Shown: one piece after another, positions 44,693 through 50,356 of the stretch
Numbering within the stretch: position 1 is the first letter of the stretch
Layout: every line of letters starts with the position of its first letter
NCBI RefSeq assembly: GCF_900112815.1
Contig: NZ_FOND01000011.1
Span: 62,001 to 126,000, forward strand
DNA: 64,000 nt
Source of the DNA: Blastococcus tunisiensis
GTDB lineage: Bacteria > Actinomycetota > Actinomycetes > Mycobacteriales > Geodermatophilaceae
Direction of reading: 5' to 3'
Translations under genes and position numbers: made by a program
Notes under the pieces: model-generated
The model's database searches: none
What the model was told of the DNA's origin: nothing
Seen by the model: the letters and a program-made list of their open reading frames with translations, nothing else

Positions 44693-47665
44693 GTGCCCGC
44701 ACATCCCGGCACCACGTCACGCCGAACCGCTCGTGCGGTGGCGCGACGTGCCGCCCTCGGCACCGCGGCTGCGTCCCTCGCAGTCGTGGGCATGCCCGCC
44801 ATCGCTCTCGCAGCGCCGCCGACCACTCCGTTCATCTCCGAGATCCACTACGACAACACCGGTGCGGACACCGAGGAATTCGTCGAGGTGCAGCTCCCGC
44901 CCGGCACGAGCTCCGCCGGCATGTCGATCGTTCTCTACAACGGCAGCAACGGCACCGCGTACGGCACGCTCGCCCTCCCGGCCGCGACCGCACCTGCAGA
45001 CCGGCCGGCCGTGGTGTCCGTCGACGGTCCCTCCGGCGGCATCCAGAACGGCGACCCGGACGGACTGGCGCTGATCAGCGGCGGCGCCGTCGTGGAGTTC
45101 CTCTCCTACGAGGGCGTCTTCCCAGCGACCGACGGCCTCGCCGCGGGCATGACGAGCACGGACATCGGCGTCGCGGAGGAGCCGGTGCCCCCCGTGGGCC
45201 AGTCGCTGTCCCGCGGCTACGACGCAGGATCCGACGCGCTCGTGTGGTCGGGCCCGGCCGCCGCGACGCGGGACACGGTGAACTCCACCGGTCCGGATGA
45301 GGAGGAGCCGCCGCCGGACGCCGAGGTCTGCGACGTGACGCCGACGCACGAGATCGGGGCGGTCCAGGGCACCGGGGACACCACCCCGCTCGACGGCCAG
45401 CAGGTCACCGTGCAGGGCGTCGTGGTGGGCGACCTGCCGGGCATGTCGGGCTTCTTCCTCCAGGACGCCGACGGTGACGGCGACCCCGCCACGTCCGACG
45501 GCGTCTTCGTGTTCAGCCCCCTCGCGGTCGACCTCGGCGACACCGTCGCCGCGACCGGCACCGCCGAGGAGTACTTCCTGCAGACCCAGGTCAGTGCCGG
45601 CAGCTCCGCCGAGGTGTGCACGGACGGCACGGCCACGGACCTTCCCGGGCCCACGGCACTGGACCTGCCGGCCGACGACTCCGCCCGCGAGCGGCTCGAG
45701 GGCATGCTGGTCGCCCCCGCGGACACCCTCACCGTGAGCGAGGTCTACGACCTCACCAGCTTCGGTGACCTGACCCTGTCCGAGGGCGGCCTGCTCGTGC
45801 AGCCGACCGAGCTCGCCCGCCCGGGCGAGGCAGCCGAGGCCATCGCCGAGCAGAACGAGCTGCGCCGCATCGTGCTCGACGACGGGGTCAGAGGCCGGCT
45901 CAGCGTGGAGACCGCCCCCTACCTGACGCCGGAGACGCCGGTCCGGGTCGGTGACGAGCTCGACCTCACCGAGCCGCTGGTCCTGGGGTACGGCTTCGAC
46001 CTGTGGCGGCTGTTCCCGGCCGACGGCACGGCGGAGGGGGTGTTCGCCCCGCAGAACACCCGGCCGGAGTCGCCCGACGAGGTCGGCGGCGACGTCCAGG
46101 TCGGCGCCTTCAACGTGCTGAACTACTTCCTGACGTTCGGCGACAGCAGCACCGCCCGCGGCGCCGCGAACGCGGCGGAGTTCGAGGAGCAGGCCGCCAA
46201 GATCGTCACGGCGATCAACGAGATGGACGCCGACGTCCTGGCCCTCATGGAGATCGAGGACACCGCCTCCACCGGGTACGGCGACGGCACCCCCGACCAG
46301 GCGGTGGCCGACCTCGTCCGGCGGCTGAACGAGGCCGCGGGCACGGAGAAGTGGGCCTTCGCCGCCTTCCCGGAGGAGCTGCTCGCCGTCGACCGGGACG
46401 TCATTCGCAACGCGATCATCTACCAGCCCACCGCGGTCACCCCGGTCGGCGACCCGGTGGGCCGGGTCGACGAGGAGAACTTCGACAACGCTCGCGAGCC
46501 GATCGCCCAGACGTTCGAGGCCGCGGGGGACCGGTTCACCGTCATCGCCAACCACCTGAAGTCCAAGGGCGGGAGCGGTGCCGGCGGCGACAACGTGGAC
46601 ACCGGTGACGGGCAGGGCGCGTACAACGCCGACCGCACGCGGCAGGCACGGTCCCTGGCGGCCTTCGTCGAGGAGCTCCGCGCGGGCACCGGCGACGACG
46701 ACGTCATGGTGCTCGGCGACCTCAACGCCTACAGCCAGGAGGACCCGATCGAGGTGCTCCGGGCGGCCGGTCTGACCGACCTGGGCACGCAGTTCGACGA
46801 GGGCCGGTACAGCTACGTGTTCGACGACAAGTCGGGGTCCCTGGACCACGCCATGGCCACCGCGAGCCTGACGGCCAAGGTCACCGACGTGGCGCACTGG
46901 AACATCAACTCGGTCGAGTCGTTCGCCTACCAGTACGAGGGCGACCCGGAGCTGTACGCACCGCACCAGTTCCGGTCCAGCGACCACGACCCGATCCTCG
47001 TCGGCCTCGACCTCGGCGAATCGGCGGAGCCGGAGCCCGAGGTCGGCAACCCGACCGGGCCGGCGAACGGCAACAGCTGGGTGCACCCGCAGGACCGGGT
47101 GGCCTACATCGCCGGCTACTTCGTGAACACCGACAGCGTGCCGGTGGACGTCCGGCTGCTGACCGACCACGGCCAGTCGGAGGCGCAGCGGGTGGCCCCG
47201 GGCGCGGCGGCCTACCTCACGGTGAACACGGGGCTGGCCGAGCTGCCGGCGGGCACGGCGACGCTCCGGGTGTACAAGAACGTGGGCGGCAAGGGCTACC
47301 AGTCGCTGTTCCCGGTCACCTATCCGGGCCGCAGCGCCACCGGGAACCCGCCTGCGACGGGCAACCCGACGGGCGTGGCCAACGGCAACAGCTGGGTGCA
47401 TCCGCAGGAGCAGGCGGCCTACATCGCCGGCCACTTCGTGAACACCGACGGCGTGCCCGTCGACGTCCGGCTGCTCACCCCGCACGGCCAGTCGCAGGCG
47501 CAGCGGGTGGCCCCGGGCGCGGCGGCCTACCTCACGGTGGACACGCAGCTGGCCGAGCTGCCCGCGGGTACCGCCACCTTCCGCGTCTACAAGAACGTGG
47601 CCGGCAAGGGCTACCAGTCCCTCTTCCCGGTCGCCTACCCGGCGCGGAGCGCCGCCGGCGAGTGA
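44693..47665 (+). CDS. ExeM/NucH-type secreted endonuclease with two C-terminal repeat modules
   Basis: The 990-residue exported protein has a twin-arginine-like signal (TARAVARRAALG then a hydrophobic stretch ending IALAAP). It continues with a lamin-tail-like domain (FISEIHYDNTGADTEEFVEV, about 45-170), an OB-fold region (about 225-340) and an endonuclease/exonuclease/phosphatase domain (about 465-775). That domain has GAFNVLNYF, MEIED, NHLKSKGG, LGDLNAY and SSDHDP as catalytic motifs. ExeM/NucH proteins degrade extracellular DNA. Two 98-residue modules (residues 785-882 and 890-987) end the protein and recur in the next gene. No sortase motif is present. A hairpin terminator follows, so the 5'-nucleotidase has its own promoter. 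Confidence 0.88.
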   Translation: MPAHPGTTSRRTARAVARRAALGTAAASLAVVGMPAIALAAPPTTPFISEIHYDNTGADTEEFVEVQLPPGTSSAGMSIVLYNGSNGTAYGTLALPAATAPADRPAVVSVDGPSGGIQNGDPDGLALISGGAVVEFLSYEGVFPATDGLAAGMTSTDIGVAEEPVPPVGQSLSRGYDAGSDALVWSGPAAATRDTVNSTGPDEEEPPPDAEVCDVTPTHEIGAVQGTGDTTPLDGQQVTVQGVVVGDLPGMSGFFLQDADGDGDPATSDGVFVFSPLAVDLGDTVAATGTAEEYFLQTQVSAGSSAEVCTDGTATDLPGPTALDLPADDSARERLEGMLVAPADTLTVSEVYDLTSFGDLTLSEGGLLVQPTELARPGEAAEAIAEQNELRRIVLDDGVRGRLSVETAPYLTPETPVRVGDELDLTEPLVLGYGFDLWRLFPADGTAEGVFAPQNTRPESPDEVGGDVQVGAFNVLNYFLTFGDSSTARGAANAAEFEEQAAKIVTAINEMDADVLALMEIEDTASTGYGDGTPDQAVADLVRRLNEAAGTEKWAFAAFPEELLAVDRDVIRNAIIYQPTAVTPVGDPVGRVDEENFDNAREPIAQTFEAAGDRFTVIANHLKSKGGSGAGGDNVDTGDGQGAYNADRTRQARSLAAFVEELRAGTGDDDVMVLGDLNAYSQEDPIEVLRAAGLTDLGTQFDEGRYSYVFDDKSGSLDHAMATASLTAKVTDVAHWNINSVESFAYQYEGDPELYAPHQFRSSDHDPILVGLDLGESAEPEPEVGNPTGPANGNSWVHPQDRVAYIAGYFVNTDSVPVDVRLLTDHGQSEAQRVAPGAAAYLTVNTGLAELPAGTATLRVYKNVGGKGYQSLFPVTYPGRSATGNPPATGNPTGVANGNSWVHPQEQAAYIAGHFVNTDGVPVDVRLLTPHGQSQAQRVAPGAAAYLTVDTQLAELPAGTATFRVYKNVAGKGYQSLFPVAYPARSAAGE
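47045..47338 (+). repeat. 98-residue module, copy 1 (in secreted nuclease)
   Basis: It runs from GNPTGPANGNSW to YPGRSA. Conserved landmarks are NGNSWVHPQ, YIAG-FVNTD, VPVDVRLLT, HGQS-AQRVAPGAAAYLTV, LAELPAG, RVYKNV-GKGYQSL. It is predicted mostly beta-stranded and has no Cys. By hand count it shares 84 of 98 residues with copy 2 and 85 of 98 with copy 3, with no gaps. Confidence 0.95.
47360..47653 (+). repeat. 98-residue module, copy 2 (end of secreted nuclease)
   Basis: It is the same length as copy 1 (294 bases) and is separated from it by a 7-residue Thr/Pro-rich linker. It ends three codons before the nuclease stop. Differences from copy 1 cluster at positions 6, 17-19, 25, 31, 41, 46 and the last ten residues. 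By hand count it shares 83 of 98 residues with copy 3. Confidence 0.95.
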
Positions 47666-47717
47666 CCCGGGCCCGGTGGCGAGCGTTCCGCGTCACCGGG
47701 ACCCGGCTGCGCACCAG

Positions 47718-47757
47718 GTGCCGGACCGGATCTCCGTGAGGGGATCCGGCCCGGCAC
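47718..47757 (+). terminator. hairpin terminator after the secreted nuclease gene
   Basis: GTGCCGG (47718-47724)/CCGGCAC (47751-47757) and CCGGATC (47726-47732)/GATCCGG (47743-47749) stack into a 14-bp stem with one internal A/C mismatch and a 10-base loop. Confidence 0.75.
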
Positions 47758-47831
47758 GGGGCGGGCCGACGGGCCGGTCGTGATCCATCCCACGCGGCGT
47801 GCCCCACGTGTCCGCCCCGCCGTCAGTTCGC

Positions 47832-47860
47832 GTTCACCATGGGACGGAACGGTTCGTCCC
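47832..47860 (+). promoter_or_regulatory. candidate control region of the 5'-nucleotidase gene
   Basis: GTTCACC at 47832-47838 resembles one unit of the Streptomyces PhoP box. Next to it GGGACGGAAC-GGTTCGTCCC (47841-47860) is a near-palindrome. A second properly spaced PhoP unit is not seen, so phosphate control is only a suggestion. Confidence 0.3.
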
Positions 47861-47902
47861 GGAACGACCCCTCACCCTCACCTGAAGCTCGGAGAGTTCT
47901 CG

Positions 47903-50356
47903 ATGCAATCTGTTCATCGGACGGCGCGCGGAGTCGCCGTCGTCACCGCTGCCGTCGTGGGCGGCGGACTGCTCGGGGTGTCGCCTGCACTGGCTGCCCC
48001 CGTCGACGCCCCGGCCGTCACCGGATCCCAGGCCGCCGGCGCTGCGGCGCCGGCGGAGGTCGGCAACCCGACCGGCACCGCCAACGGCAACAGCTGGCTG
48101 CACCCGCAGGACCAGGTGGCCTACATCGCCGGCCACTTCGTGAACACCGACAGCGTGCCCGTCGACGTCCGGCTGCTCACCCCGCACGGCCAGTCGGAGG
48201 CGCAGCGGGTGGCCCCGGGTGCCGCCGCCTACCTCACGGTGAACACCGGGCTGGCCGAGCTGCCGGCGGGCGAGGCCGAGCTCCGCGTGTACAAGAACGT
48301 GGCCGGCAAGGGCTACCAGTCGCTGCTCCCGATCTCCTACCCGGCGCAGAGCGCCGGCGACGGCGGCGGGGACGACGACGGCGTCACGGAACTGCAGCTG
48401 CTGGGGATCAACGACTTCCACGGCCGGCTGGACGACGCCGTCGCCCTCGCCGGCACGGTGGAGGAGCAGCGGGCCGCCGAGGGCGTCGACGCGACGCTGC
48501 TGCTGTCGGCGGGGGACAACATCGGCGCCTCCCCGTTCGTGTCCTCCGTCCAGCAGGACGTGCCGACGATCGAGGTGCTGAACGAGATGGGCCTGCAGGC
48601 CTCCGCCGTCGGCAACCACGAGTTCGACCGCGGGTTCGACGACCTGGTCGGCCGGGTCGGCGTCGACGGGGAGAGCGGTCTGGCCGCCTTCGACTACCTG
48701 GGCGCGAACGTCTACCGGGACGGCACCACTCCGGCGCTGCCGGAGTACGCGCTGCTCGACGCGGCGGGCGTGTCCGTCGGTGTCATCGGCGTGGTCACGG
48801 AGGAGACCAGCTCCCTGGTGTCGCCGGCCGGCATCGAGGGGATCACCTTCGGCGACCCGGTGGCGGCCACCAACCGCGTGGTCGGGGAGCTCACCGACGG
48901 GGTCGGCGACGAGGCGGACGTGATCGTCCTGCTCGCGCACGAGGGCGCTCCGGGCAGCGACTCCGTCGAGGAGGCGCTGGCCGAGGACACCGCGTTCGCC
49001 GCCATCGTCAACGGCGTGGACGCCCAGGTGGACGCGATCTTCACCGGCCACACCCACCGGAGCTACGCCTGGGAGGCGCCGGTCCCCGGCGGCGACGACA
49101 CCCGCCCGGTGATCCAGACCGGGTCCTACGCGGACGCGCTGGGCCGGATCGGGCTGACCTACGAGGCCGCGACCGACGACGTGACCGCGTTCACGGTGGA
49201 GAACCTGCCGCTCACCGCCACCCCGGCCGACGAGCTCACCGCGACCTACTCGACGGTCGCCGAGGTGGCCGCGACCGTGGCCGCCGCACAGGCGTACGCC
49301 GAGGAGGTGGGCAGCGAGGTGGTCGGGTCGGTGACGGCCGACATCACCCGGGCCTTCACCGAGGCCGGCGCCGAGGACCGCGGGTCCTACTCCGGTCTCG
49401 GCGGCCTGGTCGCCGACACCTACGTGTACGGCTCCGAGCTCAGCGCCATCGAGCCGGCCGACCTCGGCCTGGTCAACCCCGGCGGCCTGCGGGCCGACCT
49501 GCTGTACGGCGAGAACGGGGAGATCACGCTGGCCGAGGCCAACGAGGTGACGCCGTTCGCCAACGACCTGGTCATCGTGTCGCTGACCGGCGCCCAGCTG
49601 GTGCAGGTCCTCGAGCAGCAGTGGCAGCCCGAGGGCAGCTCGCGGCCGTTCCTGGCGCTCGGCACGTCCGAGGAGCTGACCTGGTCCTACGACCCGGCCG
49701 CGCCCGCCGGCGAGCGGATCCACAGCGTGCGGATCTCGGACGAGCCGATCGACCTCGGGGCGACCTACCGGGTGGCCACCAACAGCTTCCTGGCCTCCGG
49801 TGGGGACAACTTCACCACCTTCGCCGAGGGCACCACCGAGCTGACCGGGCTGATCGACTTCGACTCCTTCCAGGCCTACCTGGAGGACAACTCGCCGCTG
49901 AGCCCGGAGGACTACACCGGCCGGGTCACCGTCGGCGAGGCCGAGGAGCCGGCGCCCGCCGCCGGGGTGACGGTGTCGTCGACGACGGTCGCGGTGCGCG
50001 AGCGCGTCACGGTCTCGGTCACCGGCTTCGGACCCGCCGAGCGGGTCACGGTGACCCTGGGCGGCGACCGGCTGGGCCGCATCCGCACCGACGCCGACGG
50101 CGCCGGCTCGGCGACGGTCCGCATCCCGCGCGGCGCCGGAACCGGTCCGGCCGAGATCGTGGCCACCGGGGCGGACACCGAGCGCGTGGCGACGGTCCCG
50201 GTGGAGATCACCGGGCCGCAGCAGCCGGGCAACGGCAACGGGAACGGGAACGGCAACGGGAACGGCGGCACCGTCGGCAGCCCCGCGCCGGGCCAGTTCC
50301 TGACCACCCTCCAGGAGCTGCTCCGCACCCTCCTGCGCGGCTGGTTCGCCGGCTGA
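47903..50356 (+). CDS. UshA-type secreted 5'-nucleotidase / metallophosphatase
   Basis: The 817-residue exported protein has a signal peptide ending SPALAAP. The third copy of the 98-residue module (residues 54-151) is at its N-terminus. A calcineurin-like metallophosphatase domain (about 160-430) has NDFHGR, GDNIGAS, GNHEFDRG and HTHR as metal motifs. A 5'-nucleotidase C-terminal domain (about 470-665) has VNPGGLRADL and ASGGDNF. An Ig-like domain (about 685-775), an (Asn-Gly)n tract and a short amphipathic tail follow. UshA enzymes dephosphorylate nucleotides outside the membrane. ATG 47903 follows GGAGAG. The longer frame from 47780 lacks a signal-peptide start and is rejected. Confidence 0.9.
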   Translation: MQSVHRTARGVAVVTAAVVGGGLLGVSPALAAPVDAPAVTGSQAAGAAAPAEVGNPTGTANGNSWLHPQDQVAYIAGHFVNTDSVPVDVRLLTPHGQSEAQRVAPGAAAYLTVNTGLAELPAGEAELRVYKNVAGKGYQSLLPISYPAQSAGDGGGDDDGVTELQLLGINDFHGRLDDAVALAGTVEEQRAAEGVDATLLLSAGDNIGASPFVSSVQQDVPTIEVLNEMGLQASAVGNHEFDRGFDDLVGRVGVDGESGLAAFDYLGANVYRDGTTPALPEYALLDAAGVSVGVIGVVTEETSSLVSPAGIEGITFGDPVAATNRVVGELTDGVGDEADVIVLLAHEGAPGSDSVEEALAEDTAFAAIVNGVDAQVDAIFTGHTHRSYAWEAPVPGGDDTRPVIQTGSYADALGRIGLTYEAATDDVTAFTVENLPLTATPADELTATYSTVAEVAATVAAAQAYAEEVGSEVVGSVTADITRAFTEAGAEDRGSYSGLGGLVADTYVYGSELSAIEPADLGLVNPGGLRADLLYGENGEITLAEANEVTPFANDLVIVSLTGAQLVQVLEQQWQPEGSSRPFLALGTSEELTWSYDPAAPAGERIHSVRISDEPIDLGATYRVATNSFLASGGDNFTTFAEGTTELTGLIDFDSFQAYLEDNSPLSPEDYTGRVTVGEAEEPAPAAGVTVSSTTVAVRERVTVSVTGFGPAERVTVTLGGDRLGRIRTDADGAGSATVRIPRGAGTGPAEIVATGADTERVATVPVEITGPQQPGNGNGNGNGNGNGGTVGSPAPGQFLTTLQELLRTLLRGWFAG
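48062..48355 (+). repeat. 98-residue module, copy 3 (N-terminal in 5'-nucleotidase)
   Basis: It is 294 bases with no indel against copies 1 and 2, although here the module is N-terminal rather than C-terminal. It shares 85 of 98 residues with copy 1. Long runs of identical codons (around FVNTD, VPVDVRLLT, GQS and AQRVAPG) suggest duplication or gene conversion rather than ancient divergence. Confidence 0.95.

Follow-up and report, generated by a model that had tools for sequence, protein, structure and literature searches.

The closest described counterparts of the two genes considered here are the extracellular nucleases of the ExeM/NucH family and the 5'-nucleotidases of the UshA type. In Shewanella oneidensis, ExeM is still found in the membrane fraction when its putative C-terminal anchor is missing (PMC6085458). 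The window, a stretch of 64,000 nucleotides of the soil bacterium Blastococcus tunisiensis (contig NZ_FOND01000011.1, positions 62,001 to 126,000), encodes on its forward strand a nuclease of this family (P0001; 44693..47665, 990 aa, GTG start) and a UshA-like 5'-nucleotidase (P0002; 47903..50356, 817 aa, ATG start), and the two proteins share a module of 98 residues that is present in three copies (m1–m3). As in the Shewanella family, the catalytic region of the nuclease (45410..47014, residues 240–774; also PF03372) scores above the NF033681 cut-off (575.9 vs 300 bits), which places it among the ExeM/NucH enzymes. Unlike Shewanella ExeM, it carries two modules where a C-terminal transmembrane anchor or GG-CTERM would sit (none seen by eye), and it falls far below the cut-off of the ExeM-GG model NF033680 (241.1 vs 1300 bits). 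The nucleotidase has in common with UshA-type enzymes a metallophosphoesterase domain (PF00149, 36.1 bits; 48398..49060, residues 167–387) and a 5_nucleotid_C domain (PF02872, 117.6 bits; 49364..49828, residues 489–643), and it is called 'UshA-like' because both matches exceed their cut-offs while the UshA equivalog NF007109 is not reached (159 vs 600 bits). Scores are likewise below the cut-offs for the surface-anchored Nt5e/LPXTG forms (117.5 and 154.3 bits, each vs 1050), from which the enzyme also differs in having no LPXTG motif (by eye) and in carrying its module ahead of the catalytic part. A reading made from the sequence only had described both proteins as free of a sortase or membrane anchor, and none was seen by eye at their ends.

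The module is most probably a member of an apparently undescribed family of domains of about 95 residues, possibly immunoglobulin (Ig)-like, that actinomycetes usually place last on secreted enzymes. In some Geodermatophilaceae, one copy lacking the cysteine pair of the family would have become the linker of a fusion between a secreted ExeM nuclease and a UshA-like 5'-nucleotidase. An ancestor of the split lineages would have gained further copies of this linker module; between copies there would then have arisen a stop, followed by an intergenic region, a start and a signal sequence, leaving the nuclease with two modules and the nucleotidase with one. The module would hold the secreted enzymes near the cell or matrix, with nuclease products reaching the nucleotidase at short range despite the lost covalent link. 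We consider the structural and evolutionary part of this explanation highly probable and the explanation as a whole the favoured one, with the retention function put forward tentatively.

Three module copies in adjacent genes

The nuclease gene, with GGAAGGA 5' of its start, opens with a signal-like leader and closes with m1 (47045..47338) and m2 (47360..47653), the latter stopping 3 residues before the C-terminus. The third copy, m3 (48062..48355), follows the signal sequence of the nucleotidase, ahead of the catalytic part, and is hence N-terminal. Each copy measures 294 nucleotides (98 residues) and lies in register with the others, and repeat finding (one family over 300 nucleotides, 84–88%), genome searches and protein alignment without gaps all recovered the arrangement of two copies in one enzyme and one in the other that the sequence-only reading had reported. 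Its hand count of about 85% protein identity compares with computed values of 85–87% (87–89% for nucleotides), and the copies are free of cysteine, as it had stated. With m3 as the query, m1 and m2 were found in the same genome at E-values of 1.6e-54 and 9.4e-54, which excludes chance likeness. No further copy was detected in this genome, either in the m3 search (13 of 13 candidates scored) or with a 30-row profile of the wider family (best 45 of 75 candidates).

Raw counts of synonymous and nonsynonymous differences among m1–m3 are about equal (20/18, 15/17 and 13/20), and the ratio of nonsynonymous to synonymous rates (dN/dS) is 0.28–0.53 among the three copies and 0.16–0.41 against same-position copies of two other genomes. 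Given the higher per-site synonymous rate, the module copies are under protein-level constraint, at values similar to those of the catalytic parts (0.22–0.35, against five relatives). The net charge of the modules is close to zero (-2 to +4). They had been called unrecognised, and no Pfam-A or NCBIfam model covers the module in scans of both window proteins, nor was a model found for four distant members of the family described below (NCBIfam up to E 1). A weak match to the CdiA C-terminal tRNase PF18664 (17.9 vs a gathering score of 26.5 bits, over 28 residues only) was rejected.

A domain family on secreted actinomycete enzymes

Profile searches connected the module to domains of many other actinomycete proteins. 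The first profile, built from 10 Blastococcus copies and two similar domains of the genomes G026 and G080 (regions L150/L151), found the domain in 24 of 298 genomes of the order; four of these 24 had contributed rows. To exclude that the G026 and G080 rows were driving these matches, a control profile was made from eight Blastococcus module rows alone; it recovered 20 of 20 wider-family rows, themselves originally found with a profile that included modules, at E-values of 7e-14 to 3e-5, against 0.74 for the best of 5000 shuffled decoys. The reverse profile, built from the family, recovered all eight module rows (E 6e-20 to 4e-15; best of 5000 decoys, 1.4). Matches in both directions far beyond the decoys show that the modules are homologous to the family. 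Across the class, the 30-row profile found the domain in 35 of 394 genomes, which fall in 13 of 138 genera and include two that had supplied rows; up to 12 candidates were scored per genome, which makes the copy numbers minimum values. At the level of the phylum there were matches in 7 of 396 genomes, with one weak match outside the class (E 6.8e-5), and within the bacterial family 8 of 112 genomes matched, one of them G074. Confinement to this locus, a point raised by the sequence-only reading, thus holds in the genome itself as far as it was searched, but fails beyond it. Its view of the module as an independent unit is borne out by the homologues that other actinomycetes carry on secreted enzymes of many unrelated kinds.

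The edges of the family are less sharp. The L150/L151 domain on the nucleases of G026 and G080 matches the family profile at E-values of 6e-5 and 1.7e-4 and the module profile at 0.04 and 0.03, and an hhalign comparison gives a probability of 21% (E 0.001); it is probably a distant member and is not counted as a certain one, though its rows were used in profiles A3 and A5. A weak match in G040 (L005) was rejected as a probably spurious frame. Some matches lie on plasmid records, namely a GH43 protein of Clavibacter phaseoli (plasmid pCCh), a match in Cellulosimicrobium protaetiae (60% of the query) and one in Nonomuraea gerenzanensis, where gene annotation is absent. Among open-licence papers, none was found that names the module or a fused nuclease-nucleotidase, and the family of secreted actinomycete enzyme domains is apparently undescribed. 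A putative C-terminal carbohydrate-binding module (CBM) is mentioned for EndoMA1 (PMC10509167).

Placement and carriers were characterized in 80 proteins from 40 regions, hand-chosen from the profile matches in favour of places with multiple matches; 45 of these proteins were scanned for domains (25 of 54 and 25 of 52 families listed). The domain usually forms the last ~95 residues, with 68 of the 80 proteins ending 0–3 residues behind it. By a crude rule, a signal-like leader occurs in 64 of 72 carrier frames with an intact start, compared to 16 of 186 other long frames (mostly non-genes), and none of the 80 carriers has a transmembrane-like C-terminal segment or an LPxTG motif near its end. 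A glycoside hydrolase family 43 (GH43) match is present in 24 of the 45 scanned carriers. Other carriers, among the matches listed, include GH127, GH95 and GH123 (one each), two GH39, multicopper oxidase, Metallophos with 5_nucleotid_C, and peptidases M6 and M28, the M28 peptidase of G074 having a cysteine-bearing form of the domain as its C-terminal end. Several carriers already possess CBM_6, CBM_4_9 or F5/8 type C domains (7–8 of 45 each, among the matches listed). An extended NGNGNG repeat characterizes one 469-aa frame (L267:1423-2829), which has the family domain as its end (E 2e-13); a second stretch immediately preceding the domain reaches only 0.39.

One asparagine is invariant across a 110-row alignment (some duplicates included), and the wider-family rows have a median net charge of -1. 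Cysteines near the start and the end of the domain are both present in 84 of 100 distinct domains and both absent in 16, with no domain possessing one alone, an all-or-none pattern that suggests an intramolecular disulfide. The Blastococcus modules have neither cysteine and so depart from a frequent, non-universal feature; together with L150/L151 they account for 10 of the 16 cysteine-less domains, the other 6 lying elsewhere. The domain family is possibly Ig-like. A profile search of the PDB returned 6num as its best match (E 0.45), and the 30-row profile returned the designed Ig proteins 8bl3 (4.6e-4) and 8bl6 (7.4e-4), values summed over two repeats of ~4–6 each; as single repeats reach only those E-values, no solved structural relative emerged convincingly from these searches.

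That adjacent secreted enzymes share the domain proved to be a recurring pattern. In the full class-search list minus G000 and G026 (129 matches, 33 genomes), 70 matches lie within 6 kb of another match, one such pair being inside a single protein. For the five genomes with at least 9 matches, 4–7 clustered matches were observed compared to means of 0.2–0.4 under random placement; in G492, the observed 4 clustered matches were reached by at least 1 of 5000 random draws. Four regions (L229, L230, L231 and L232) each contain 4–5 nearby genes, most or all for secreted enzymes, with the domain at or near the end of each.

Fused and split forms of the locus

The sequence-only reading had the module pass from one enzyme to the opposite end of another, unrelated one; comparison with relatives points instead to a single gene that was divided. 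Among 59 ExeM regions (56 from the bacterial family plus L008, L009 and L010, where L010 and L042 are the same locus), a nucleotidase occurs in the same open frame as the nuclease in 10, spread over three genus groups. In G012 and G073, and in four members of another genus group, the fusion passes through a short G/D-rich linker and has no module. Blastococcus sp. TF02A-30 (G1057, genus group g12) is fused with exactly one module as the linker (1537-aa frame), as is G105 of genus group g7 (1584-aa frame). The split form, with two modules on the nuclease and one on the nucleotidase, occurs in three genomes: the window genome, Blastococcus haudaquaticus (G011, locus L010), which falls in the same genus group, and Blastococcus sp. 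DSM 44205. Three of the ten fusions (G090, G033 and G099) combine the nuclease with another kind of nucleotidase, 33–35% identical to that of the window, and these proteins (L045, L051 and L063) end in a Gly/Asp-rich stretch and a sortase-anchor-like tail composed of LAYTG, a hydrophobic stretch and a basic end (by eye).

Marker genes show the locus to be orthologous in the window, G011, DSM 44205, TF02A-30, G012, G073, G090 and G033, and MalQ follows it downstream in each of the eight (10 kb only for DSM 44205), while for G105 neither the upstream markers nor MalQ had a match in the 20 kb around the fused gene. Two carriers from other bacterial families (L209 and L214) are likewise fused nuclease-nucleotidases, with the domain behind the nucleotidase; NF033681 matches two of the 45 scanned carriers, L209 by name and L214 presumably as the second. 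Fusions in three genus groups and elsewhere make the fused gene likely the older state, and the single-module linkers, together with fused and split forms at one orthologous locus, are best explained by fission at the linker as the source of module sharing, with the order of events being a likely reading of these comparisons.

The stretch between the split genes (47666..47902, forward strand) contains strong GC hairpins without a T run and then the pre-start region of the nucleotidase. Two such hairpins lie 3' of the nuclease stop (47654–47780, fold z -3.85), the equivalent site of the other two split genomes has strong hairpins as well (z -4.65 and -4.83), and a simple scan of the window stretch gave no T-tailed terminator and no sigma-70 match. 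Hairpins between the split genes in all three genomes suggest that the two genes are probably transcribed separately. The two signal sequences may or may not share an origin, for instance through duplication of the entire fused gene: their alignments score 40, 40 and 34 (shuffle p 0.018, 0.025 and 0.12), and of 29 unrelated leaders 7% do equally well against the leader of the window.

The nucleotidase of the window ends (50294–50353) in a short amphipathic helix-like tail, LQELLRTLLRGWFAG, and similar tails, LVSWFQGFVTNLLRGWFIR in DSM 44205 and LISWVQQVITNLIRGWFTR in TF02A-30, end fused and split relatives after a variable Gly/Pro-rich stretch; this tail may itself bind the membrane. The ExeM relatives of G032 and G069 end in a short charged amphipathic helix, and many others in the bacterial family (including L046, L049 and L053) end in RTX-like glycine/aspartate repeats in place of a module (all by eye). 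In five regions of one genus group (L068, L071, L072, L073 and L266), the nuclease half is ~46% and the nucleotidase half ~81% identical to those of the window, suggesting that the front half of the fusion was probably exchanged there.

Alternative readings and a possible role in retention

The module could be a mere folded spacer, a by-product of the fission that was kept on both sides and has no role in binding. This is possible but doubtful: fused relatives manage with a short G/D-rich linker, TF02A-30 and G105 carry a single module in the linker position, and the modules have a dN/dS similar to, and no lower than, that of the catalytic parts, all as a spacer would have it, but the nuclease bears two copies in 3 of 3 split genomes seen, and the presence of homologues on so many other secreted enzymes speaks for some general function.

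A CBM targeting the enzymes to polysaccharide would agree with the GH43 carriers and the single or paired GH127, GH95, GH123 and GH39 carriers, and with the frequent proximity of carriers to one another. The family resembles CBMs in being accessory to GH43 and other glycoside hydrolases, and differs from them in being usually last and in having carriers that do not act on carbohydrate, including nuclease-nucleotidase fusions, multicopper oxidases and M6 and M28 peptidases. Some carriers have a CBM_6, CBM_4_9 or F5/8 type C domain of their own, the module and four distant members match no Pfam CBM model, and the near-constant last position is unlike CBMs, which are usually placed more freely within proteins. 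A CBM is a possible but rather unlikely identity for the module.

The order of events admits a different course, in which the split form with two modules and one is old and TF02A-30 was fused again by recombination between copies, leaving one hybrid module. A MalQ tree places TF02A-30 beside the split DSM 44205 (87/90), and the copies share 78–89% of nucleotides and appear (by eye) partly homogenised within genomes. The linker module of TF02A-30 is also not clearly m3-like by DNA: in the window it is nearer m2 (86%) than m3 (85%), and that of G105 ties m1 and m3 (both 85%), while in the other two split genomes m3 is nearest to both linker modules. When proteins are compared, m3 is in every one of the three split genomes the copy most similar to the single linker modules of TF02A-30 and G105, ahead of m1 and m2, which weakly fits m1 and m2 as later copies. 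A windowed comparison of the TF02A-30 module gave no clear switch from m1 to m3 and no clear hybrid, and G105, from another genus group, has the same fused form. Re-fusion of an old split gene is thus improbable as a full account.

Fission of an older fusion remains the preferred reading, and several observations weigh against it, beginning with the DNA identities in the window and the homogenisation of copies just given. Module trees are without resolution. Although an rpoB tree without DSM 44205 places G012 nearest to the window genome among 13 other genomes (100/99), and G012 is also its partner in the tree of ExeM proteins (88/99), the DNA trees of ExeM and UshA group the window with G073 instead (95/97 and 96/99), contrary to the flanking genes, and the UshA protein tree does not settle its placement. 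Such conflict suggests that the locus was probably exchanged between lineages, which confuses polarity, and independent loss or re-fusion, for example in TF02A-30, is possible. In addition, G073 and the closest genome in the rpoB tree, G012, are fused at the same locus with no module, which weighs against a tether being needed. The window modules also have no cysteine pair, and neither m1 nor m3 occupies the last place; the usual role of the family may thus have been lost here.

That the module is a DNA-binding part feeding the nuclease is very improbable: it does sit on a nuclease, but its near-neutral charge speaks weakly against DNA as a ligand, the wider family tends to a slight negative charge and most scanned carriers are non-nucleases.

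The usual last place of the domain on unrelated enzymes, several of which have binding modules of their own, suggests retention rather than substrate binding. A retention function of the module, close to the tether to cell wall, matrix polysaccharide or DNA that the sequence-only reading had suggested, is plausible and is offered here as a tentative reading of sequence comparisons. Enzymes of this kind are held at the cell by other means in Shewanella ExeM and, to judge from their tails, in the sortase-tailed fusions of G090, G033 and G099, which provide a precedent and count for retention as such. In being short, possibly Ig-like and usually last on unrelated secreted enzymes, the family is also like strictly C-terminal sorting or retention domains such as that of the type IX secretion system (T9SS). 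It differs in that no NCBIfam model of that type matches the window proteins or four distant members (E up to 1) and in that the module of the window nucleotidase is N-terminal. No T9SS is known from actinomycetes. More speculatively, and with little probability at present, the domain could be the tag of an undescribed actinomycete route of surface retention or sorting, in which a disulfide-stapled Ig-like C-terminus docks to one envelope component; in Blastococcus, an unstapled tag would then keep the split enzyme halves together.

A domain covered by no Pfam-A or NCBIfam model ends glycoside hydrolases and DNA degraders alike, and naming it would annotate many proteins. The locus itself forms a natural series, from fused without a module, to fused with one, to split with two and one, that suits study of what gene fission does to the two extracellular steps leading from DNA to nucleosides, and the family as a whole poses the question of how actinomycetes hold their enzymes.

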